In this document: one piece after another, positions 24,867 through 32,714 of the stretch
Layout of the letters: each line of letters begins with the position of its first letter
How positions within the stretch are numbered: position 1 is the first letter of the stretch
DNA from: a virus
Strand: one strand, 5' to 3'
Length of the DNA stretch: 32,714 nucleotides
Virus record (IMG/VR): IMGVR_UViG_3300042350_003191
Location: 1-32,714 of that record
Notes under the pieces: model-generated
Seen by the model: only the letters and a program-made list of their open reading frames with translations
What the model was told of the DNA's origin: nothing
The model's database searches: none
Program-made: the position numbers and the translations under genes

Positions 24867-25118
24867 CTACCCCGAGTCTGCCGCACCATCCCCCTCGTCT
24901 TGCAGTTCGTCCGCCAAGCCGTTGATCGTCTCGTTGCAGTAGTCGTAAAAGAAATCGAACGTGTCCCGCACTTCCTGCCTGGCCTCTTTCACTTCCAGCC
25001 GGAAAGGCCACTTGAAGTGGTCGGCGTCTTTCACCGTGCCGTCCCCTTCGCACAGGTACACGGAGATGTACTTCTGGCTCACGTCCACCACGATCTTGCC
25101 CAGGATGGGATCGCTCAT
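24867..25118 (-). CDS. Small acidic protein, function unknown
   Basis: This 83-aa protein starts at ATG 25118 overlapping the upstream stop as ATGA. It is acidic and contains SDPILGKIVVDVSQKYISVY, then a helix (EVKEARQEVRDTFDFFYDYC). There is a single Cys. The first part could form a beta hairpin. It is not recognised. It is separated from the following cassette by 12 bases. Confidence 0.65.
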   Translation of the reverse strand: MSDPILGKIVVDVSQKYISVYLCEGDGTVKDADHFKWPFRLEVKEARQEVRDTFDFFYDYCNETINGLADELQDEGDGAADSG

Positions 25119-25459
25119 TCGCCCCCCTCGATGTGCCGCAGATCCTCGGGCGTCTCAATCTGCCGCAGCGTGAACTGCGTGGGCTTGGTCACGGCCCGCT
25201 CGTAGCGGGTGTGCTCGTCCCATCGGGCCTGGATCTCCCGGCAGGCTTGCGCGATCTCGCGGGGCGTGGGGTCGCGCTGGCGTTCGGGCTTGAAGCGGAA
25301 CCGGCGGTCGTGCCGGGGCGGCAGATGGGCCACCGCTTTCAAACGAATCAGCTGGTCCTTCGTGATCGTCCAATGGGTACAGATTGCGTACATCGACGAG
25401 TGCGATGCCCACTGAATCCGCAACGTCTGGAAATCAATGGTCGCTGTGACGCCCGCCAT
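25115..25459 (-). CDS. Possible DNA-binding protein, planctomycete-phage type
   Basis: This 114-aa protein starts at ATG 25459, preceded by GGAG and overlapping the glycosyltransferase end by 26 bases. An alternative start is ATG 25393. The segment HWTITKDQLIRLKAVAHLPP is like a start-of-helix in a DNA-binding motif. Then DPTPREIAQACREIQARWDE follows, a motif that recurs almost unchanged in the helix-turn-helix protein at 27685-27927 (DPTPDEIAERARECRE). The shared motif suggests the two proteins are related by function or descent. Function unknown. Confidence 0.6.
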   Translation of the reverse strand: MAGVTATIDFQTLRIQWASHSSMYAICTHWTITKDQLIRLKAVAHLPPRHDRRFRFKPERQRDPTPREIAQACREIQARWDEHTRYERAVTKPTQFTLRQIETPEDLRHIEGGE

Positions 25460-26333
25460 CGGTTTGCTCCAGCCAGTGCATCACCATCCGCATAGCGGGG
25501 TCGATGTAGAACCGCTGCCCCGTCCGCTCCGCGATGCTGCGGTGGAAGGCCACATGCTCGCAGTCGGTTTCCCCGTCGTAGTGCCCACGCAGGAAGGCGA
25601 ACATGTCGTAGATCGCCATGCCGCCGAAGGCCGAGCAGACCGGAAACGGCGGCGAGCCTACCGGCGGCAGGTGACTGTGCTTCCACCCGCCGAGGCCCGC
25701 CGTGTAGTCGTCCCAATACGAATTGAGCCGGTACGCCCAGGCGTCGTAGTTCACGAAATCCGCGACGAGCTTGGGCTGCCGGTCTTCGCCCATCGCCATC
25801 ACCGGATGCTGGATCAACGCCACGCCCGCCATGCCGTAGGCGTCGGGCGTCGCGTGCAGCGCCCCGACCCCGTGCATCACGCCCGCGTGACTCCACCCGC
25901 CCCAAGCGTCCCAATCAATCACCACCACAAGATCGCAGGCGGCACAGTTGTCGGCCACCCACCGCTGGCAGGCCGTGCGGTACTCGGCCAGGGCAATCGT
26001 GCGGCGGCCCGCGAACTCGGCCCCGTACTGCTCACGCCCCAGCCGCTGGCTCGTGAAGGTCGCCTGCCGGTGGGCGGCGGCGAAGTCCGCGAGCACCTGC
26101 ACCGTTCCATCGGATGAGTCGTTCTCTTCGATGTGCAGCCGCCACTCGCCGCAGGTCTCCACGAGCTGCTCGAACCGGCCGAGGTTCGCCTTGAGGTGCG
26201 GTGCACAGTTGCGGGCCAGGCCGACGAACGCCACGCGCGAGTCGCGGAAGTGCGACTCGCCCTCACGCACCACCCGCAGGTGGTCTGCGGCGAACGGCTC
26301 AAGCGGGTAGATGAGGTGCTGCGGAATGTTCAT
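25434..26333 (-). CDS. GT-A-type glycosyltransferase
   Basis: This 299-aa protein starts at ATG 26333 overlapping the methyltransferase stop as ATGA. RVAFVGLARNCAPHLKANLG at about residue 30 and IEENDSSDGTVQVLADFAAA fit the N-terminal part of a nucleotide-sugar transferase. LVVVIDWDAWGGWSHAGVMH near 135-155 holds a DxD-like motif (DWD). The protein is rich in Trp, Tyr and His, as in many phage sugar transferases. A role in altering cell-surface or virion sugars, or modified DNA bases, is inference. Coupling to a SAM methyltransferase suggests a joint modification step. Confidence 0.75.
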   Translation of the reverse strand: MNIPQHLIYPLEPFAADHLRVVREGESHFRDSRVAFVGLARNCAPHLKANLGRFEQLVETCGEWRLHIEENDSSDGTVQVLADFAAAHRQATFTSQRLGREQYGAEFAGRRTIALAEYRTACQRWVADNCAACDLVVVIDWDAWGGWSHAGVMHGVGALHATPDAYGMAGVALIQHPVMAMGEDRQPKLVADFVNYDAWAYRLNSYWDDYTAGLGGWKHSHLPPVGSPPFPVCSAFGGMAIYDMFAFLRGHYDGETDCEHVAFHRSIAERTGQRFYIDPAMRMVMHWLEQTDGGRHSDH

Positions 26334-26788
26334 GCGGCTTCCTTGCGTAGGTGGAACTCGATGTTCCCGTGCTGGTCGTGGGCCACATGCTCGATCACCC
26401 ACCAGCGGGCCTTGGCGGCGAAGTAATACACGCCGTACTTCTGGTGCAGTTCCTTGCGGCGGTCCCAGTAGTCGAACGTGTGCGGCGTGAAAAACCGCCG
26501 ATGCGTCGGGTCAGTAAAGGCGTTCTCGTGCCGGTAGTCCGGCACGCGCAGGCTCAGGCTTCCGCCGGGGGCCAGGATTCGCCACGCCTCGTTCAGCCAA
26601 TCGGGCACGTCCGCACGCAGGTGCTCCACCACGTCGTGCGCCACGATCATGTCGAACTCGCCATCCGCCCACGGCCAGGGCAGCACGTCGAGATCGTGGG
26701 CAACGTCAATGTGCGGGCTGTGCAGTGCGATGTCGTGGTTCACGGCACCGTCCACGCGGGTGAGGCCGCAGCCGAGATGCAGGATCAT
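26330..26788 (-). CDS. Class I SAM-dependent methyltransferase
   Basis: This 152-aa protein begins MILHLGCGLTRVDGAVNHD, where LGCG is the glycine-rich AdoMet loop. It continues with WADGEFDMIVAHDVVEHLRA (post-I and motif II of the type 11 family), then RILAPGGSLSLRVPDY. This is a compact small-molecule type methyltransferase. ATG 26788 overlaps the RusA stop as ATGA. The substrate is unknown; the coupled glycosyltransferase suggests a sugar or lipid acceptor. The C-terminal ~60 residues contain RRFFTPHTFDYWDRRKE, common in such enzymes. Confidence 0.88.
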   Translation of the reverse strand: MILHLGCGLTRVDGAVNHDIALHSPHIDVAHDLDVLPWPWADGEFDMIVAHDVVEHLRADVPDWLNEAWRILAPGGSLSLRVPDYRHENAFTDPTHRRFFTPHTFDYWDRRKELHQKYGVYYFAAKARWWVIEHVAHDQHGNIEFHLRKEAA

Positions 26789-27192
26789 TGAATCCGCACG
26801 GTCGTCCGCGCCTCCGCTCCGTAAGACTTTTCCACCACGAGCTTCGCAACCTGCGAGTCGTCCTCGAACGCCACGCCGTTCAGGGCGTCGAGGCACGCCT
26901 TCGCGGCGTTGTCCACGTCGCAGCGTGGCAGGGCCGGTGCCCCCTTCCGCAGCCCCTTCTTGGTCAGGTGCGAGGCCGGGCGGGCAAATACCAGATCCAG
27001 TATCACGGTCAGCGGCTCCGTGGTTGTCGGCGTTGCCCCGGCTTCGAGGGCCGCCGCTGCGATCGCTTGGCGGTACGCATGCACTGGGTGCTTCCCAGGC
27101 ACATACGCCCGAGCGAACCCGCCCCGCGTTGAGACTCGTGGCCTCGGCTGCGGCACGGGATCGCCCGGCACGGAGAACGTCAGCGGGTTCAC
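26785..27192 (-). CDS. rusA: RusA-type Holliday junction resolvase
   Basis: This 135-aa protein begins VNPLTFSVPGDPVPQPRPRV, the RusA N-terminus, and has PRCDVDNAAKACLDALNGVA with catalytic Asp92/Asp94 and EDDSQV with Asp111/112. RusA dimers resolve Holliday junctions during phage recombination and packaging. The start GTG 27192 overlaps the upstream stop as GTGA. The mass and order of motifs fit the family (120-140 residues). Position among replication genes is standard. Confidence 0.92.
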   Translation of the reverse strand: MNPLTFSVPGDPVPQPRPRVSTRGGFARAYVPGKHPVHAYRQAIAAAALEAGATPTTTEPLTVILDLVFARPASHLTKKGLRKGAPALPRCDVDNAAKACLDALNGVAFEDDSQVAKLVVEKSYGAEARTTVRIQ

Positions 27193-27338
27193 GCGGCCCT
27201 CGCTGCGAGGTAGAGGCCGACGTTGGCGAACGCATACCCGAGGTAGGCCAGACCAAGCCCCGCTTTGCCATGCAGGGCCAGGTCTGCCGCCACGACGAGA
27301 TAGATGCCGCCCGTCAGGGCGATGAGCCAAGGGGCCAC
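27189..27338 (-). CDS. 49-aa two-helix membrane protein
   Basis: This short gene was read from the sequence between RusA and the secreted 97-aa protein. It runs from GTG 27338 to TGA 27191-27189, with AGGTG before the start. The product begins MAPWLIALTGGIYLVVAADL and continues with GLAYLGYAFANVGLYLAA, two hydrophobic helices split by HGKAG. Its stop overlaps RusA's GTG as GTGA, which supports reality. I recall near-identical small proteins in planctomycete phages. A membrane or superinfection role is possible but unknown. Confidence 0.72.
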   Translation of the reverse strand: MAPWLIALTGGIYLVVAADLALHGKAGLGLAYLGYAFANVGLYLAARAA

Positions 27339-27341
27339 GGT

Positions 27342-27635
27342 TCACCTGTAGCGGATGACGGCGTACCAGCGGCGCGTGACCGGCGAGTAGGCCACGCCTT
27401 CCTCGACGATCACCTTCTTCCCGAAGAAGCAGCAGTTGCGCCGGGCCTGCTCTGGCGTCGAGCCCATGCCTATCCCTTCCGTCTGGCTGCACTGGCTATG
27501 CACGAGCGTGCCACGCCGGGCGATGATCGTGGCGTGCTCCTGGGCCGAGATCACGGCCGGGCCACGCACCACGATGGTCTGGCCGTTGGCGAGCGAAGCG
27601 GCGAGGGCGAACAGGACGACGAAGGCAAAACGCAT
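27342..27635 (-). CDS. Secreted hypothetical protein
   Basis: This 97-aa protein starts at ATG 27635 after AGGAG at 7 bases. It has a signal peptide (MRFAFVVLFALAASLANGQT, cleavage likely after NGQ or ANG). The mature part holds AQEHATIIARRGTLVHSQCS, TEGIGMGSTPEQARRNCCFF and a C-terminal VTRRWYAVIRYR. The GIGMGSTPEQARRNC block is memorable and I recall it in planctomycete phages. It may act in the periplasm. Three Cys are present. Function unknown. Confidence 0.72.
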   Translation of the reverse strand: MRFAFVVLFALAASLANGQTIVVRGPAVISAQEHATIIARRGTLVHSQCSQTEGIGMGSTPEQARRNCCFFGKKVIVEEGVAYSPVTRRWYAVIRYR

Positions 27636-27684
27636 GGCGTTGCTCCTGGGGTGAGTGAACCACGCCCGCAGGATGGCAACCGTG

Positions 27685-27927
27685 TCAAGCGTCAGGCTCA
27701 GCCCGCCGCTGGGCGAAGTGCCGCTCTCGGCACTCTCGCGCCCGCTCTGCGATCTCGTCGGGCGTCGGGTCCACGATCCGCTTGCGGAACTTGCATGCCC
27801 GATCCGGTATGCCGTGCTCGCGCCGCAGTTCGTGCAAGCGTTGCCGCCGGATGCCGAGGTGCGCAGCGATTGCATCCGCTGGCACCCCGGCATCCCACAT
27901 GCGGCGAAGCTCTTCGATGTCTGGCAT
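27685..27927 (-). CDS. Helix-turn-helix protein, GcrA-like N-terminus
   Basis: This 80-aa protein starts at ATG 27927, overlapping the DnaN stop (TGATG). EELRRMWDAGVPADAIAAHL and GIRRQRLHELRREHGIP form a classic helix-turn-helix, as in the GcrA/resolvase-type N-terminus. The C-terminal DPTPDEIAERARECRERHFA is shared with the protein at 25115-25459. It is a probable DNA-binding regulator or packaging accessory. Translation is coupled to the clamp. Confidence 0.7.
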   Translation of the reverse strand: MPDIEELRRMWDAGVPADAIAAHLGIRRQRLHELRREHGIPDRACKFRKRIVDPTPDEIAERARECRERHFAQRRAEPDA

Positions 27928-29030
27928 CAGTCCTTCGCCAGAGGCATCACCACGCCGGTGCAGTCCCCGCACCGGAAGACCACCGCACTCTGAGCGTCCA
28001 CCGCCTCAACCTCGACGGGCTCGGCCTCATCCACGCCACGCAGGAACTCGACCACGAAGCCGGGGTCGAGCGCCACGCTCGCCGTCTGCCCCGCTTCGAG
28101 CAGCCCGCACGTCACGCTCGACTGCCCCGCCTCGGCACTCTGCGCCGTCAGGTGGATGCCGTTCTCGACGAACGCGAACGTCACGCCCTTCGATTGCTCA
28201 CTCGTCACGATGGCCGCCTGCCGCGTCGCCGCCAGGAGCTCGGCCCCGTTCACGAGCGTGGCCTTCGCGTCCCGCTCGGGGATCACGTCACGCCACCGGG
28301 GGAAGCGGCCCTCGACCAGCCGGGCCGTGACCACCGTGCCGTCGATGGTCGCCACCACCTCGCGGTCGGTGGCCTCCAACTGCACCGCCCCCTCGCTGTG
28401 CGAGGCGATGCTGCTGATGGTCAGGATCGCCCGCGCCGGGATCAGCGTCGTGGAGTCGTCCACCGCCTGGTCCACCTCAATGCCGTAGGACGAGAGCCGC
28501 CGCCCGTCCGTGCCCACCAGCGTCACCGTGCCATCCTTCACCTCGACGAGCACCGCCCCGAGGGCGAACCGGCTCGAATCGGTGTCCGTGGCGTAGGCCA
28601 CCGCCTTCACCGCCCGCACGAACTGGTCGCACGGGATGCGGCAGATCGGCTTCACGGCCTGCGGCTCCCACCGGGGGAACTCAAGAGCGTCCTCGGTCGG
28701 CAGCGTCCAAGTGCCACCGCCAACGCTCACGGTGCAAGAGTTGCCGCTGGGGGCCAGCGTCACCTCGTCGCCCGACGCGGCCCCGAGGATCGCCTGCAAG
28801 CGGGCGAACGGGAGCAGCAGCGGGGCGTCGGTGTACGGCACCTCGGCCGACACCTGAAGCTCAAGGTCACTCGCCGTGATCCCGCCGTTGGCCAGGAGCA
28901 CGTTGAGCAAGATCGGCTTCGGGCTTCGGTTGGCGACGGCCGCACGGACCGCAGCCAGGGCCTTTCTCAGCGAGTCGATTGGCATGGCTATGCCAGAACT
29001 CTTGCGCTTCCTTGCGATAGTCGCGGTCAT
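27927..29030 (-). CDS. dnaN: DNA polymerase III beta subunit (sliding clamp)
   Basis: This 367-aa protein matches the bacterial beta clamp in length (about 366). It has three clamp domains: residues 16 to about 120 (SLRKALAAVRAAVANRSPKP, ILLNVLLANGGITASDLELQ), 130-245 with FVRAVKAVAYATDTDSSRFA and VTLVGTDGRRLSSYGIEVDQ, and 250-367 with SVALDPGFVVEFLRGVDEAE and VVFRCGDCTGVVMPLAKD. ATG 29030 follows AAAGGA. The clamp tethers a DNA polymerase; no polymerase is in the window, so it may recruit the host enzyme or one outside the window. Its first 55 codons overlap a membrane-protein gene on the same strand. Confidence 0.92.
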   Translation of the reverse strand: MTATIARKRKSSGIAMPIDSLRKALAAVRAAVANRSPKPILLNVLLANGGITASDLELQVSAEVPYTDAPLLLPFARLQAILGAASGDEVTLAPSGNSCTVSVGGGTWTLPTEDALEFPRWEPQAVKPICRIPCDQFVRAVKAVAYATDTDSSRFALGAVLVEVKDGTVTLVGTDGRRLSSYGIEVDQAVDDSTTLIPARAILTISSIASHSEGAVQLEATDREVVATIDGTVVTARLVEGRFPRWRDVIPERDAKATLVNGAELLAATRQAAIVTSEQSKGVTFAFVENGIHLTAQSAEAGQSSVTCGLLEAGQTASVALDPGFVVEFLRGVDEAEPVEVEAVDAQSAVVFRCGDCTGVVMPLAKD

Positions 29031-29139
29031 CGTTCGATTCCTTTCGTAAGAGTGAAACACCAACCACAATGCCCAGAGCGAACGTCAGGGCTTGGATCAA
29101 AATGCCCGCCGAAACGAGCGTGAGCTGCGAGAGCGTCAT
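28867..29139 (-). CDS. Small single-TM protein overlapping dnaN
   Basis: This 90-aa frame starts at ATG 29139 overlapping the upstream stop as ATGA. Residues 1-45 look real: a TM helix (VSAGILIQALTFALGIVVGV) followed by SLLRKESNDDRDYRKEAQEF. From about residue 37 it lies inside dnaN in another frame for 164 bases, where its composition (GCGPCGRRQPKPEADLAQRA) looks like a shadow. So a genuine start may have run on by mutation into dnaN, or the overlap is tolerated. Function unknown; the N-terminal half resembles phage anchor proteins. Confidence 0.5.
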   Translation of the reverse strand: MTLSQLTLVSAGILIQALTFALGIVVGVSLLRKESNDDRDYRKEAQEFWHSHANRLAEKGPGCGPCGRRQPKPEADLAQRAPGQRRDHGE

Positions 29140-29381
29140 GCGGCACCGCCCTTCTGGGCCATCATCGACTTGATGTAGACCGCCATCTGGTGGGCTTCGG
29201 ATTCGGTCTTCTCGAGCGTGGCGGCGTTCTTCACGAGCCGCGCGTGCAGTTCGCGGATCGTGTCGGCCGCCCACTCCAGCCGCAGCCGGGAGTCGTCGTC
29301 GATGGCGTCCAGCCATGCGGCCTGGGCGCACAGGTCCGCCACGATCAGCGGAGCAGGGGCCGGGTACGGGTTCTCACTCAT
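29136..29381 (-). CDS. Helical hypothetical protein
   Basis: This 81-aa protein starts at ATG 29381 after GGAGG at 6-base spacing. A Pro-rich start (MSENPYPAPAPLIVADLCAQ) is followed by helices (LEWAADTIRELHARLVKNAA, TLEKTESEAHQMAVYIKSMM) that look like a coiled coil. It overlaps the LexA-like gene by 8 bases and the membrane gene by ATGA. No family recognised. Confidence 0.65.
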   Translation of the reverse strand: MSENPYPAPAPLIVADLCAQAAWLDAIDDDSRLRLEWAADTIRELHARLVKNAATLEKTESEAHQMAVYIKSMMAQKGGAA

Positions 29382-29610
29382 CGACCACCTCCACGCTGCG
29401 GGCCTTGTTCGGGTTGCGGCGCAGGTAGCCCTTCTTTTCGAGGGCGTTCAGGTGGCACTGCACGCCGTTGGGCGAGGCGATGCCGTGGGCAGCTGCGATC
29501 TCTCGCACGGTCGGGGCCGCGAGACGCGAGTTCTCACGAATCCAGTTGAGAAGCTCGCGCTGGCGGGCGGTCAGGGGCGGTCGGGCTGTTGCGGTTGCTG
29601 TTTCGGTCAT
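29374..29610 (-). CDS. LexA-type DNA-binding domain protein without peptidase
   Basis: This 78-aa protein starts at ATG 29610, overlapping the replication gene's stop as ATGA. LTARQRELLNWIRENSRLAA and PTVREIAAAHGIASPNGVQC, then HLNALEKKGYLRR, match the LexA winged-helix start ('LT.rQ.evl..I'). The usual C-terminal Ser/Lys autoproteolysis domain is absent. The protein would bind a LexA-box-like site without SOS cleavage. It may act as a stable repressor or competitor for host LexA; that is inference. Confidence 0.82.
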   Translation of the reverse strand: MTETATATARPPLTARQRELLNWIRENSRLAAPTVREIAAAHGIASPNGVQCHLNALEKKGYLRRNPNKARSVEVVDE

Positions 29611-30479
29611 AGGTTTTCCTCGTCCTTGATGGTGATGGCTGCCGCAATCGCGGCGGCTTCGGTGCCGCCCCTTCGTTCCCGACGCCATGCGGCGTACTCG
29701 GCGTCGGTCATCTGGCGGCTGGCATCGCCACGCCACCAGCGTTTTTTGGCGGGGTCTTGAGCAGGGGGCTGGGCCTTGTTGCCGGGCTCCCTGTGCGTCC
29801 CACCGTGATCCTGGCACTTCGTCAGCCAGACAGTCGTCAGCCAACGTCGCCAGTTCGACTTCCGTGCCTTCTTTGGGTTCGCCTTGAGCCACTGGGTGGC
29901 CTTTGCGAGCTCGACGGGAAGATCAGCCGCCGGGTAAGCCTGTGACCATTCCGCATGGTCAGCGTCGGTGATTCCCTCCCAGCCCGATTCCGCAGACCAC
30001 CGAAGCGGATCGGGTGGCTTCGAGCCAGACCGCGTAGCGGGCTTGCTCGGAGCAACCAAAGGATTAGAGGTAGAAGGATTAAAGGAAGAAGGATATAAGG
30101 CGCAATTCGCAATTATTTTTCCCGGCTCGCCGTGAATTTTCACGATTTCGCCTGAGTCGGCCGCAGGAATGCCTTCCGGCTGCTCTGACGGGTGGCATCG
30201 CTGATGCTCGGTGAACGTGGGTATCTCGATGTATGTGCGATCGCCGACGCGGTAGGCCACCAAGAATCCTCTGGCCTCAAGTTGCCCCAGCAGGGCCACC
30301 ATGTCGCAGTTGTCGTAGGGGAACAGCTCCGCCTTGATCCGCAGCGGGCGGCATTCGAGACGGCCCTGCGAGTCCGCAAGCGTCCACAGCCCAGCAAAGA
30401 GCAGGCGGGCCATAGGCTCGCACTCGGCCAGGTGCTCGTTCTTGAAAAACGACGGTTTCAGGCTACGGGTTCGTGCCAT
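29607..30479 (-). CDS. Phage replication protein, winged-helix/O-like
   Basis: This 290-aa protein begins MARTRSLKPSFFKNEHLAEC and has RLLFAGLWTLADSQGRLECR, a pattern found in phage replication initiators with a winged-helix fold ('ip...f.n...l..l....r.lf..l...ad..Gr'). The middle is Pro/Ser-rich linker (about 125-160). The C-terminal part, EWSQAYPAADLPVELAKATQ and KSNWRRWLTTVWLTKC, recalls a primosomal/helicase-loading domain. ATG 30479 has AAAGGAGG at 6 bases. A role in origin melting or helicase loading is likely; no origin repeats are visible in the gene. Confidence 0.82.
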   Translation of the reverse strand: MARTRSLKPSFFKNEHLAECEPMARLLFAGLWTLADSQGRLECRPLRIKAELFPYDNCDMVALLGQLEARGFLVAYRVGDRTYIEIPTFTEHQRCHPSEQPEGIPAADSGEIVKIHGEPGKIIANCALYPSSFNPSTSNPLVAPSKPATRSGSKPPDPLRWSAESGWEGITDADHAEWSQAYPAADLPVELAKATQWLKANPKKARKSNWRRWLTTVWLTKCQDHGGTHREPGNKAQPPAQDPAKKRWWRGDASRQMTDAEYAAWRRERRGGTEAAAIAAAITIKDEENL

Positions 30480-30491
30480 CCCTGGCCTCCT

Positions 30492-31220
30492 TTAAGTCCC
30501 AATCCGGTATTCGGGATGGCACCACTCGCTCTCCCATTCGAGCGGTTCGCTGAGCGCGAACATCTGGTACCACTCGCGAAAGTAAGCCAAGGCGATGTGG
30601 TCGCCTTCCACAAGAATCGCGTTTTCGCGGCTCCGTGTTCCGTTTGCGGTCGGATTAAAAGAGCCCGTCCACACAGCCCTGGGTTTTGGCTGCCACCGAT
30701 ACCAAGGGTCTTCGCCGTCCAGCTCCAGTACATCGCAGAAAACGAGGAACTTGTGGTGCATCCGAGGAAACGCAGGGTGCCTGTCAGAGTTGTGATTGCC
30801 GACACAACGCACAGGCAGCATCTGGCCTTCATCCATGCCGGTGCTGAGCTCTGGCATCAGCGCCACCTTGGCGCACTCATGCCTGCCGACCCTGCAAGAA
30901 AGTGACGAATACAGGCTGTGCAGCCGCGACTTCCATCCGCGCGCGGACGACGCATCGGGACGGAGAAAGTCCTCTTTCTGGCAAATAATCTGACAGCCAC
31001 CCCAAACACCAGCCAGCGACTCAATAACGCGCTCGTGTGTTAGCCATGCGCAGCAGCCGACAACAAAGCTGCTCTGCGCAATGTGGCAACAGAGCGGCGA
31101 CGCCAACTCTCCGAAGTAGGCTTTTACGTCAACCTTTTCGTCGGCCCACGGAGTGTTGTCTACGGCCACATCAGGGCCGTCGGCATTGGTTATGGCAACT
31201 TGCGTAAAGTCGAAGTCCAT
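30492..31220 (-). CDS. Phospholipase-D-fold protein
   Basis: This 242-aa protein ends with MHHKFLVFCDVLELDGEDPW then VWTGSFNPTANGTRSRENAI, the standard HxK followed by 'TGSFN....n..EN' of the PLD/nuclease superfamily. The Asp after HxK is one residue further than in the textbook HxK(x)4D, so activity is not certain. The N-terminal 120 residues have many Cys and match no family I know. One copy of the motif means it would dimerise. PLD-fold proteins in phages include nucleases and anti-defence factors. It begins at ATG 31220 after AAGGA. Confidence 0.72.
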   Translation of the reverse strand: MDFDFTQVAITNADGPDVAVDNTPWADEKVDVKAYFGELASPLCCHIAQSSFVVGCCAWLTHERVIESLAGVWGGCQIICQKEDFLRPDASSARGWKSRLHSLYSSLSCRVGRHECAKVALMPELSTGMDEGQMLPVRCVGNHNSDRHPAFPRMHHKFLVFCDVLELDGEDPWYRWQPKPRAVWTGSFNPTANGTRSRENAILVEGDHIALAYFREWYQMFALSEPLEWESEWCHPEYRIGT

Positions 31221-31249
31221 CTTTGTTTCCTTTTCATTCCGCCCAGCGT

Positions 31250-31660
31250 CTAAAACAAAACTGCTTGCACTTCATGCGGAACTCGCGAGCCCGCCAGCAC
31301 GTCCCACCTGCCCGAATACGAGAACAGCTCCGGCATGTAGACGCCGTTGTGGATCTTGCCTTCGGCGTCGGCCAGGGCGGCTGCCGGAAAAACAAACCAC
31401 TCATCGCGCCAAAAAATCGCAAAGGCATCGACATCGGCCGAGTCGTAGACAACCGCCGATGACGAAAGGTTTGTCACGAGCCGGATGTTGTTCGGCTTTG
31501 ACTGATCGACGCATCGCTTTTTGATTTGCAGCCGCCTGCCGTTCACCAGCCGGTCCCACGAGTGCTGATTGCCTGCGGTGGGCCGGATCACTTGGTAGCC
31601 AAGGGCGCGGCAAATGTGCTCGGCCTGAATCTCGTATATGTCGCCGTCCTGCCTGCTCAT
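31250..31660 (-). CDS. PD-(D/E)XK-like nuclease protein
   Basis: This 136-aa protein begins SRQDGDIYEIQAEHICRALG and has YQVIRPTAGNQHSWDRLVNG followed by RRLQIKKRCVDQSKPNNIRL. An early Glu, then the WD and QIKK segments, resemble the PD-(D/E)XK fold ('E..a...L...G..v..p......D.iv......iqvK'), with Gln in place of the usual Glu before xK. It starts at ATG 31660 after AAAGGAGG. It could be a resolvase-like or restriction-related nuclease. It is followed 29 bases on by the PLD-fold gene, an arrangement worth testing as a unit. Confidence 0.65.
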   Translation of the reverse strand: MSRQDGDIYEIQAEHICRALGYQVIRPTAGNQHSWDRLVNGRRLQIKKRCVDQSKPNNIRLVTNLSSSAVVYDSADVDAFAIFWRDEWFVFPAAALADAEGKIHNGVYMPELFSYSGRWDVLAGSRVPHEVQAVLF

Positions 31661-31731
31661 GCTGGCCTCCTTTCCATTCCGCCCCGCCGCGTCGAAGCGG
31701 CTTCGTGCCTATCACGAGGGCGGCGTCGATC

Positions 31732-32142
31732 TCAATCGTGCGGCTTGTATTCGATGAGGAACTCTCCAGCGCTCGGCCCGCCATTCACGCAATGGCCGTG
31801 GTATCCCCTTTGGCCGTTCGGAAACATGTACGGCACGTTGTCGAGTTCCAACGAAGCACGCACTTGCCCGCTGCCCGTCTTGCCGATGGCGCTTATGCAA
31901 AGCCCATCGTCAGCGGAATCTGTTCGAGTCAGCAGCAGCGTTCCGGTATCGCCGTCGCGCTCAAAGTCAATCGTTACTCGATCGCCCGCCCTCCATCGCA
32001 ATACGTCCATCGTGGGGCGGCTAATGCGAATAGAAAGACCGATCTTCCGTCCGTTGTTGACCACCTTGGACATGTACAAGTCACTTTTCGAAGACCGCCC
32101 ATGCCTGTTTCCGCTTGCCTTCTTGCGAATAGAAATCTTCAT
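31732..32142 (-). CDS. Planctomycete-phage hypothetical protein
   Basis: This 136-aa protein starts at ATG 32142 after AAAGGAG. It has MKISIRKKASGNRHGRSSKS, KVVNNGRKIGLSIRISRPTM and LRWRAGDRVTIDFERDGDTG, a beta-rich pattern similar to the AbrB/MazE-type 'GDrv.v....dg...l.r'. A TTG at 32223 overlaps the upstream stop and would add residues including CGRCG; the Shine-Dalgarno favours 32142. It may be a small DNA-binding or modulating protein. I recall relatives in planctomycete phages only. Confidence 0.68.
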   Translation of the reverse strand: MKISIRKKASGNRHGRSSKSDLYMSKVVNNGRKIGLSIRISRPTMDVLRWRAGDRVTIDFERDGDTGTLLLTRTDSADDGLCISAIGKTGSGQVRASLELDNVPYMFPNGQRGYHGHCVNGGPSAGEFLIEYKPHD

Positions 32143-32219
32143 CTTCCGGCTCCTTTGCTTTCGTGTCCTTTCGTCATCCACGGTGACGCTGAACTCAACG
32201 TCACCGCACCGGCCGCACG

Positions 32220-32582
32220 TCAACGAGACGCCGCCTGTATCGTTTCCAACCCCTTATCCGTCACGCGGCAAATCCGCTGCATCTCGCCCGCCTGGCTGCG
32301 GCGCTGCTCGCCCGTGTCTGCGATGTAGCCGTGCTCGAGGAGCTCGCCGCACCGCTTCCAGTAGCAGCAGCCCTTGCGGTCGCTCAGGCCCGAGAGATCG
32401 CCCGCCTGCTCGTTCGTGAGCGGGCCGTGCTCGACGTACTGGCGAAGGAGTTCCCACCGCTGGGAGCCAGCCCGCACGCGCAACTCCTTCGAGACGGCGC
32501 AGCGGATCGGCAGTTCCACCTTGCGATCTGCCGCCGCGAAGAGCGGCATGTCTGCCAGCGTTTCCGAGTAGTAGTCGCTCAC
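32220..32582 (-). CDS. Winged-helix protein
   Basis: This 120-aa protein starts at GTG 32582 after AAAGGA. Residues 40-110 form a winged helix-turn-helix: QRWELLRQYVEHGPLTNEQA, GDLSGLSDRKGCCYWKRCGE and LLEHGYIADTGEQRRSQAGE, with a final RVTDKGLETIQAA typical of the family ('.lT.kG...'). It is probably a transcriptional regulator or replication accessory in the early region. The N-terminal DMPLFAAADRKVELPIRCAV is a separate segment. Confidence 0.75.
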   Translation of the reverse strand: MSDYYSETLADMPLFAAADRKVELPIRCAVSKELRVRAGSQRWELLRQYVEHGPLTNEQAGDLSGLSDRKGCCYWKRCGELLEHGYIADTGEQRRSQAGEMQRICRVTDKGLETIQAASR

Positions 32583-32631
32583 TGGATTCCTTTCCTTGAG
32601 TTGGCCGCGTGACGTGCGGCATCCGGTCGAG

Positions 32632-32712
32632 TCACTGGCCGGGAGTTTTTTTGTTTGGGCCAGCCTCGGCTGCGGTGGATTCAGGCGTCTCCCGCTTCGC
32701 CACCGCTGCCCT
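32632..32712 (-). CDS. C-terminal end of an upstream gene (partial)
   Basis: An open frame enters from the right edge and ends at TGA 32634-32632, giving 26 residues (AAVAKRETPESTAAEAGPNK and on). The composition is Lys/Glu/Ala, as in the disordered tail of a phage protein. It lies 49 bases before the winged-helix start. The fragment is short, and other frames are also open here, so confidence is low. Confidence 0.3.
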   Translation of the reverse strand, partial: RAAVAKRETPESTAAEAGPNKKTPGQ

Positions 32713-32714
32713 CT

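Follow-up and report, generated by a model that had tools for sequence, protein, structure and literature searches.

The stretch of DNA analysed, hereafter called the window, is the whole virus record IMGVR_UViG_3300042350_003191, 32,714 bases long. Two adjacent genes assigned to nuclease superfamilies, coding for a PLD-fold protein and a PD-(D/E)XK-like protein, are located between a winged-helix-like gene and a replication initiator, in a segment indicated below as the slot. The features considered are the following:

29607-30479, minus strand: replication initiator (phrog_16167, E 5e-43), downstream border of the slot
30492-31220, minus strand: predicted PLD-fold (Nuc-type) nuclease gene of the QKED subfamily, 242 aa (ORF, alignment and model)
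30624-30626, minus strand: conserved Glu199 of the SxEN motif (EN in 71 of 71 members)
30654-30665, minus strand: GSFN motif, residues 186-189 (G, S and N invariant; profile alignment to Nuc and mouse PLD6)
30750-30758, minus strand: HxK catalytic motif, H155 and K157 (alignment)
30957-30980, minus strand: QKEDFLRP motif, residues 81-88 (alignment and pattern scans)
31221-31249, minus strand: intergenic gap of 29 bases, with the Shine-Dalgarno-like AAAAGGAAAC preceding the PLD gene (sequence inspection)
31250-31660, minus strand: putative PD-(D/E)XK endonuclease gene, I-Ssp6803I-like, 136 aa (ORF, PDDEXK_5 match below cut-off, structure comparison)
31732-32142, minus strand: gene of 136 aa, AbrB-like by eye only, with a Shine-Dalgarno-like sequence at its ATG (ORF)
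32220-32582, minus strand: small gene, winged-helix-like by eye (phrog_18663, of unknown function), upstream border of the slot

In the order of minus-strand transcription, the winged-helix-like gene is followed by the gene at 31732-32142 and then by the PD-(D/E)XK and PLD genes. Directly downstream of these come the replication initiator, then a LexA-type HTH gene and a gene for a DNA polymerase III beta clamp. The clamp, the phage's own (phrog_947, E 5e-55; window 27927-29069), lies beside the LexA-type gene, which consists of the HTH only. A RusA-like resolvase, recognized by eye, is seemingly encoded at 26785-27240. All the GenBank phage matches of the terminase are below 60% identity. The two nuclease ORFs are arranged as in the preliminary description, head to tail and separated by 29 bases, and Shine-Dalgarno-like sequences are found at both (AAAGGAGGCCAGC-ATG and AAAAGGAAACAAAG-ATG). 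Relatives exist for each of the two genes and dN/dS is low for the PLD gene; sequence comparison indicates that neither is a chance ORF.

The PLD protein of the window matches the Pfam family PLDc_2 below the cut-off (E 0.0012, 19.1 bits, against a gathering score of 27); no family was found for it in PADLOC, NCBIfam or PHROGs, and phmmer, run with this sequence alone, found no match in the PDB. All 28 members of the viral alignment (the window and 27 others) are matched by PLDc_2 at E values up to 0.1, the best being 3e-9, and the family profile, searched against the PDB, retrieves PLD6 (E 2.8e-5) and Nuc (E 5.2e-5), with the GSFN and EN residues aligned. The predicted model (mean pLDDT 83, pTM 0.83) superposes in VIA on Nuc (1byr) with a Z score of 16.2 and an rmsd of 2.3 over 143 residues, while Foldseek reports an E value of 6.4e-7 for the same structure; the other Z scores are 16.0 for NucT, 15.6 for FAM83B and 14.1 for mouse Zucchini. 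A Nuc-type fold is predicted with confidence by the model. In the 28-sequence alignment 24 columns are invariant, including AWxT, QKEDFLRP, HxKF, TGSxN and SxEN; the H, K, G, S, N and E residues of the active site do not vary either there or when the C-terminal halves of 26 sequences are aligned. The C-terminal tail is also conserved, mostly as RIGT. The stretch between HxK and GSxN has a median length of 26 residues and varies from 15 to 114 among 72 proteins. Values of dN/dS between 0.05 and 0.08, found in the four pairs, out of six, that could be computed, with synonymous sites near saturation, indicate at the codon level that the gene is under purifying selection.

Both proteins had been described at the outset as departing from their textbook motif, because of an Asp shifted after HxK in one and a Gln in place of Glu before xK in the other. 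This is literally right but misleading, neither departure being an anomaly: the first is common to the PLD subfamily, the second to all four PD-(D/E)XK relatives. None of the 71 subfamily members has the canonical Asp, expected five residues beyond the K of HxK; its place is taken by Cys in 36 (the window protein among them), Ala in 11, Gly in 9 and Leu in 9. An Asp at the next residue, the "shifted" one of the window, is found in 12 out of 71 members; as the canonical Asp is absent from all of them, its occurrence in the window is attributed to chance. A distant relative devoid of the QKED motif (L182) shows HxKx4D, and the loss of the Asp therefore belongs to the subfamily. An AgaP mutant altered at the position of the Asp is still toxic, and toxicity requires H, K, G, S and N (PMC11442185).

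The motif that gives the subfamily its name, in the form QKEDFLRP, is invariant in the 28-sequence alignment, a set largely collected through QKEDFLRP itself, and QKEDFLR is present in 67 of 72 extracted proteins, a set partly collected by the QKEDFLRP and QKEDFLR patterns: because the motif was among the search patterns, its frequency in the first scans is inflated. A viral scan based on C-terminal patterns only produced 50 loci, 46 with the N-terminal half in frame and 4 without. A QKED-type motif occurs in 38 of the 46 (QKEDFLRP in 31, other forms of QKEDFLR in 2, QKEDLWRP in 4, QKEDWLRP in 1); of the other eight, three share an SGxPKN variant and five are distant or generic. QKEDFLRP is found in 20 of the 24 bacterial members carrying the independent pattern VWTGS(F/Y)NxT, and QKEDFLR in 28 of the 30 viral members carrying an independent HKF pattern. 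From these sequence scans, the QKED-type motif marks a large subfamily, some of whose nearest relatives lack it. The viral loci L173, L176 and L177, where AWL and HxKF are kept and an SGxPKN-type sequence is present with no QKED, may represent a sister subgroup. In two viral contigs, L155 and L156 (match 2001-2264), a 163-aa frame contains the C-terminal half only, with HxK and GSxN, and no AWL/QKED half is found in frame.

The viral scans covered 2.9 million contigs and detected PLD relatives at 31, 41 and 50 loci by successive pattern sets; the last scan, the one using only C-terminal patterns, is the least biased, with a few of its loci being generic PLD. From bacterial genomes the best 80 of 177 candidates were kept: about 40 (L034-L073) count as members, either through the motif or because the whole sequence is similar, while L075-L113, none of which showed the motif, were counted as generic PLD. 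Six plasmids matched; among 50,697 GenBank phages no match was found with two PLD members as queries. Named strains of Pseudomonas, Vibrio and Halomonas carry members in their genomes. In the genera of the Pseudomonas paracarnis and Vibrio plantisponsor genomes, a member was found in one of 199 and one of 148 sampled genomes, respectively, the positive being in each case the seed genome. Near-duplicates (L005, L021, L118) were left out, L120-L123 and L074 were excluded from neighbour and motif counts, and proteins were extracted from 72 of 75 loci (all but L034, L068 and L116). Viral and bacterial members interleave in a tree of 72 members, where 17 changes between virus and bacterium are counted, against 24.1 in shuffles, and at least five are forced by supported branches. 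A clade formed by L004, L006, L011 and L119 was seen in a tree omitting 14 of the 72 rows. Pfam has no family specific for these proteins, and a search of open-licence papers found neither QKEDFLR nor a description of the subfamily, which is not proof that none exists. The subfamily is rare and apparently undescribed.

Genomic context was evaluated in 35 phage records, the window and 34 others. In 17 of them, the window with its initiator included, an immediate neighbour of the PLD gene is a primase, prim-pol, helicase or initiator; in the other 18, no adjacent gene was recognized as one of replication. A prim-pol adjoins the PLD gene in L006, L008, L011, L015, L031 and L119, a DnaB in L010, and initiators related to a DUF1376 protein in L001 and L002; replication-type neighbours are also present in L007, L009, L013, L016, L017, L025 and L026, the primase of L009 being a weak match (E 8e-6), and in L003 the initiator is next but one. 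Not all of these records are independent, since L006, L011 and L119 are close relatives. Over the whole records, Prim-Pol is found in 10 out of 35, adjacent to the PLD gene in 6 (three of them the close relatives) and 4-16 kb away in 4 (L004, L019, L115, L116). DnaB_C is found in 8 out of 34: as the immediate neighbour in three (L008, L010, L013), next but one in L016, and elsewhere in the record in four (L020, L024, L030, L117).

The leading families among 112 near genes, in tallies where one protein can count for several families, are DnaB-like (6), primase/helicase (5), primase (4) and helicases (4, 4 and 3). In a distal control of 105 genes from the same loci (out of 112 rows, seven at record edges being left out), composed of proteins shorter than those of the near set and obtained with a home-made gene caller, no primase or DnaB is present among the 25 families listed (93 matched in all), where two helicase families and one DNA polymerase are represented by one gene each. 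Viral neighbours shorter than 70 aa and bacterial neighbours outside 90-1300 aa were dropped. The bacterial set includes 123 of 124 neighbours, the L046 row being left out because of a stop codon: no family is found in more than two of the 123 proteins and no partner recurs. The absence of a family recurrently shared by bacterial neighbours indicates that the role of the PLD protein may not be tied to phage replication. When the same 123 proteins were analyzed by PADLOC, the JetA and GajB models gave one match each, tallied without a control set and with no enrichment claimed; judging from size and sequence, these matches probably lie in L056 and L061. In two Arthrobacter-type genomes (L056:5779-10358 and L057:8700-10358) a DUF6119-like gene, assigned by tallies and sizes, is located beside the PLD gene; a JetA-like (DUF3375) gene, assigned in the same way, lies near the PLD gene of L056. 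Argonaute is absent from the 25 most frequent Pfam families listed for viral neighbours (112 neighbours, 71 families matched in all) and from the corresponding 25 for bacterial ones (123 neighbours, 131 families matched in all).

The second protein of the window matches PDDEXK_5 below the Pfam cut-off (E 0.00055, 20.4 bits, against a gathering score of 26.1). Scans of the viral contigs with this protein, or with a first three-member alignment, found no relatives, while three were detected with a four-member alignment in which L001 was the first sequence; no match was found among GenBank phages. Relatives are located in three other viral records: beside the PLD gene in L001, about 7 kb from it in L011, and in L125, a PLD-less record. 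The L001 protein is 23% identical to that of the window (E 2e-9, in a single comparison), and the L125 protein is 68% identical to that of L001. Residues E10, D36, Q45 and K47 are conserved in the four relatives, with Q-x-K invariant; I-Ssp6803I has the same set of an acidic helix residue, an Asp and Q-x-K, where Q-x-K replaces E-x-K. In the Foldseek search with the predicted model, built from three sequences (pLDDT 60), the top four rows are the four chains of I-Ssp6803I (2ost), with E values from 6.9e-4 to 1.3e-2, the next value being 0.16; by VIA, I-Ssp6803I has a Z score of 10.2 (rmsd 3.0, 120 residues aligned), followed by SPARDA DREN (7.8) and Hjc (7.5). The structure-based search, proposed as a check when the locus was first described, recovers a nuclease fold confidently for the PLD protein and points to one, from a low-confidence model, for the PD-(D/E)XK protein. 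In the region 25000-32714 no Rfam family, group I introns included, reaches the gathering threshold, so that the PD-(D/E)XK gene looks free-standing.

The contents of the slot were compared in five phages. When the window is aligned by blastn to 10,985 bases of L001, the aligned pieces are 78-93% identical, with breaks at 31221-32249, 29596-30474 (the initiator), 29139-29231 and 26334-26784. The PLD protein is 86% identical between the two and the winged-helix-like one 71%; the latter shows weak similarity to its counterparts in L002, L003 and L125. The winged-helix-like genes are clearly alike only pairwise: that of the window resembles the L001 one, and that of L002 the L003 one and, to a weak degree, the L125 one, with faint cross-links. 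Between the winged-helix-like gene and the initiator, the window contains the 136-aa gene at 31732-32142, the PD-(D/E)XK gene and the PLD gene; L001 a different PD-(D/E)XK gene and PLD; L002 two other ORFs and PLD; L003 the PLD gene, directly after the winged-helix-like gene, and then a 60-aa ORF; L125 another ORF and a PD-(D/E)XK gene, with no PLD gene in its whole 8,067-base record. Because these contents differ in the five phages, the two nuclease genes are regarded as separable contents of a variable slot.

In L001, L002, L003 and L125, the initiator at the downstream border of the slot belongs to the DUF1376 type or is related to it. The initiators of the window (29607-30479) and of L001 (L001:3001-3849) are unrelated, despite the 78-93% identity of the blastn pieces; the C-terminal part of the L001 initiator is common to those of L002, L003 and L125. 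The non-aligning stretch at 26334-26784 covers a gene which, by eye, is SAM-dependent methyltransferase-like. The three genes in the slot have GC contents of 55.7, 58.4 and 57.6%, against 63.6% for the window, which fits a recent arrival. The gene at 31732-32142, whose GC content (55.7%) is the lowest of ten genes measured, sits at a break of blastn identity with L001, where it has no tblastn match; a longer frame containing it has no match in Pfam or PADLOC, and the only PHROG and NCBIfam matches have E values of 0.18-0.19. No sigma-70-like promoter was found in 29000-32714, and the terminator-like sites there number 6, against 3.7 (sd 2.3) in shuffles, so that there is no support for the slot genes as a transcription unit of their own. 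The initial view of the locus as an accessory spot holds in that it is a variable slot of a replication operon, containing genes of lower GC; as to its reading as a typical place for morons, the lower GC is in line with recent arrival, but separate transcription finds no support.

The preliminary description had further suggested that the two proteins might act together as a defence or restriction-like unit, and had indicated co-occurrence in other genomes as a check. A profile search of the 35 viral records with a three-member PD-(D/E)XK alignment detected a relative in 2 of the 34 other PLD-bearing records: adjacent to the PLD gene in L001, about 7 kb off in L011. Counting the window, the two genes are adjacent in 2 out of 35 records; the absences of either gene are soft, since many viral records are fragments. 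For either nuclease of the window, PADLOC gives no match at E values up to 1. The largely independent distribution of the two genes, an outcome named in the preliminary description as refuting the proposed unit, speaks against joint action together with the PADLOC result, and the defence pair was ruled out as the leading reading by the 35-record search and by the slots of the four related phages. As the second gene is unrelated and interchangeable, the two nucleases look like neighbours and not like a defence pair.

The explanation considered best, and judged somewhat probable, is that of two independent nuclease genes in one operon, a PLD nuclease belonging to the replication module and an exchangeable I-Ssp6803I-like endonuclease. 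The PLD protein would be a cytoplasmic enzyme of the Nuc type, presumably a homodimer to which each chain contributes one HxK...GSxN...E half-site, and would act through a phospho-histidine intermediate without metal. As a putative component of the phage replication module, it would most likely trim or cleave single-stranded or branched nucleic acids during DNA replication or recombination. The PD-(D/E)XK gene may come and go in the slot like a free-standing homing-type or accessory nuclease; no relative similar enough to reveal an empty allele was found. The 23% identity of its L001 allele, amid blastn pieces that are 78-93% identical, was counted in favour of an exchangeable gene; ordinary module recombination could also produce such an exchange, as the initiator and the stretch 26334-26784 differ too between the window and L001.

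Other explanations have to be weighed against that of two independent genes. A two-component defence or restriction-like unit, protecting the lysogen or the infected cell from other phages, would fit the head-to-tail order with its 29-base gap, the fact that both nucleases are of kinds used in defence, and the presence, immediately ahead of PLD in L001 too, of a gene from the same PD-(D/E)XK family. Yet a relative of the second gene was detected in only 2 of the 34 other PLD-bearing records and adjacent in 1, the 8,067-base record of L125 has it without PLD, in L003 the PLD gene follows the winged-helix-like gene directly, PADLOC recognizes neither protein, and a partner 23% identical in L001, against 86% for the PLD protein, is hard to reconcile with a co-adapted pair. 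Such a unit is quite unlikely; the adjacency in L001 and the presence of both genes in L011 leave some association between them possible. The PLD protein by itself might instead be an effector against phages or superinfection that is encoded by a single gene and carried around by phages and islands. Its rarity and scattered occurrence in the two sampled genera, the interleaving of viral and bacterial members with its forced changes, the lack of a recurring partner in bacteria, along with the single JetA and GajB matches, and the participation of a PLD protein, AgaP, in defence with Argonaute (PMC11442185) are in line with this role, which is nevertheless rather doubtful, given the link to replication genes in phages, the absence of a control for the JetA and GajB tallies, and the lack of a PADLOC match for the window protein.

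For the PD-(D/E)XK protein, a role as a Hjc-type Holliday-junction resolvase serving phage recombination is suggested by the Z score of Hjc and by two Holliday junction resolvases that are matched weakly in a profile search (E 0.43 and 0.57); I-Ssp6803I, however, scores higher both by VIA and by Foldseek (E 6.9e-4, the first Hjc having 0.18), and the phage seems to have the RusA-like resolvase mentioned above. This role is possible, with more doubt than conviction. For the PLD protein, a role as a scaffold without catalytic activity, comparable to FAM83, is highly improbable: the canonical Asp is missing in every member and the Z score of FAM83B is high, but all other active-site residues are invariant and, in AgaP, the Asp position can be dispensed with for toxicity (PMC11442185). 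A more specific proposal, advanced only tentatively, is that the QKED-type PLD proteins make up a distinct enzyme family common to the replication modules of phages and to islands of bacteria. A specific substrate pocket would be formed in them by the conserved QKED loop together with the C-terminal tail, making them phosphodiesterases dedicated to replication processing or counter-defence, not general nucleases. They might act on a single, defined kind of nucleotide or nucleic-acid structure, for instance a primer or an RNA-DNA end at the fork, or a signal used in defence.

In prokaryotes the PLD superfamily is known largely from restriction and defence nucleases and from lipid enzymes, and the subfamily described here could extend this range of roles to replication or counter-defence. 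Its members are compact proteins, often encoded next to primases or helicases in uncultured phages and apparently partnerless in several bacterial phyla; because the protein is small and members are available in named strains, its substrate is directly testable. More generally, that two nuclease genes stand next to each other in a variable slot of a phage is a weak argument for their acting jointly.

The restriction nucleases BfiI, NgoAVII and SauUSI have a PLD-fold domain in common with the window protein (Z 9.9, 10.2 and 12.8, respectively), which, with its 242 aa, has little room for a DNA-binding or helicase domain; none was found by Pfam. I-Ssp6803I (2ost) is the best structural neighbour of the PD-(D/E)XK protein, as modelled at pLDDT 60, the window gene differing from it in being a free-standing ORF. 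The second-best neighbour, the DREN nuclease of SPARDA, is likened to I-Ssp6803I by its own authors (PMC12205087). SPARDA works with a short Argonaute, and none was noted among those window genes that were scanned. AgaP, the haloarchaeal Argonaute-associated PLD protein, resembles the PLD subfamily, as described in PMC11442185, in having HxK and GSxN likewise far apart and in a residue at the Asp place that toxicity does not need; it may differ in its association, no Argonaute being present among the 25 most frequent Pfam neighbour families listed for the subfamily. Salmonella Nuc (1byr) and Helicobacter NucT (6ehi) share with the window protein the single HxK-GSxN-E domain and the fold. Compared with these two, no signal peptide is evident by eye on the window protein, and the subfamily is set apart by the absence of an Asp after HxK, by the QKED-type loop and by the conserved C-terminal tail; its HxK-GSxN spacing, with the median of 26 residues, also exceeds the 11 of the arrangement HxK(x)4D(x)6GSxN given in PMC11442185.
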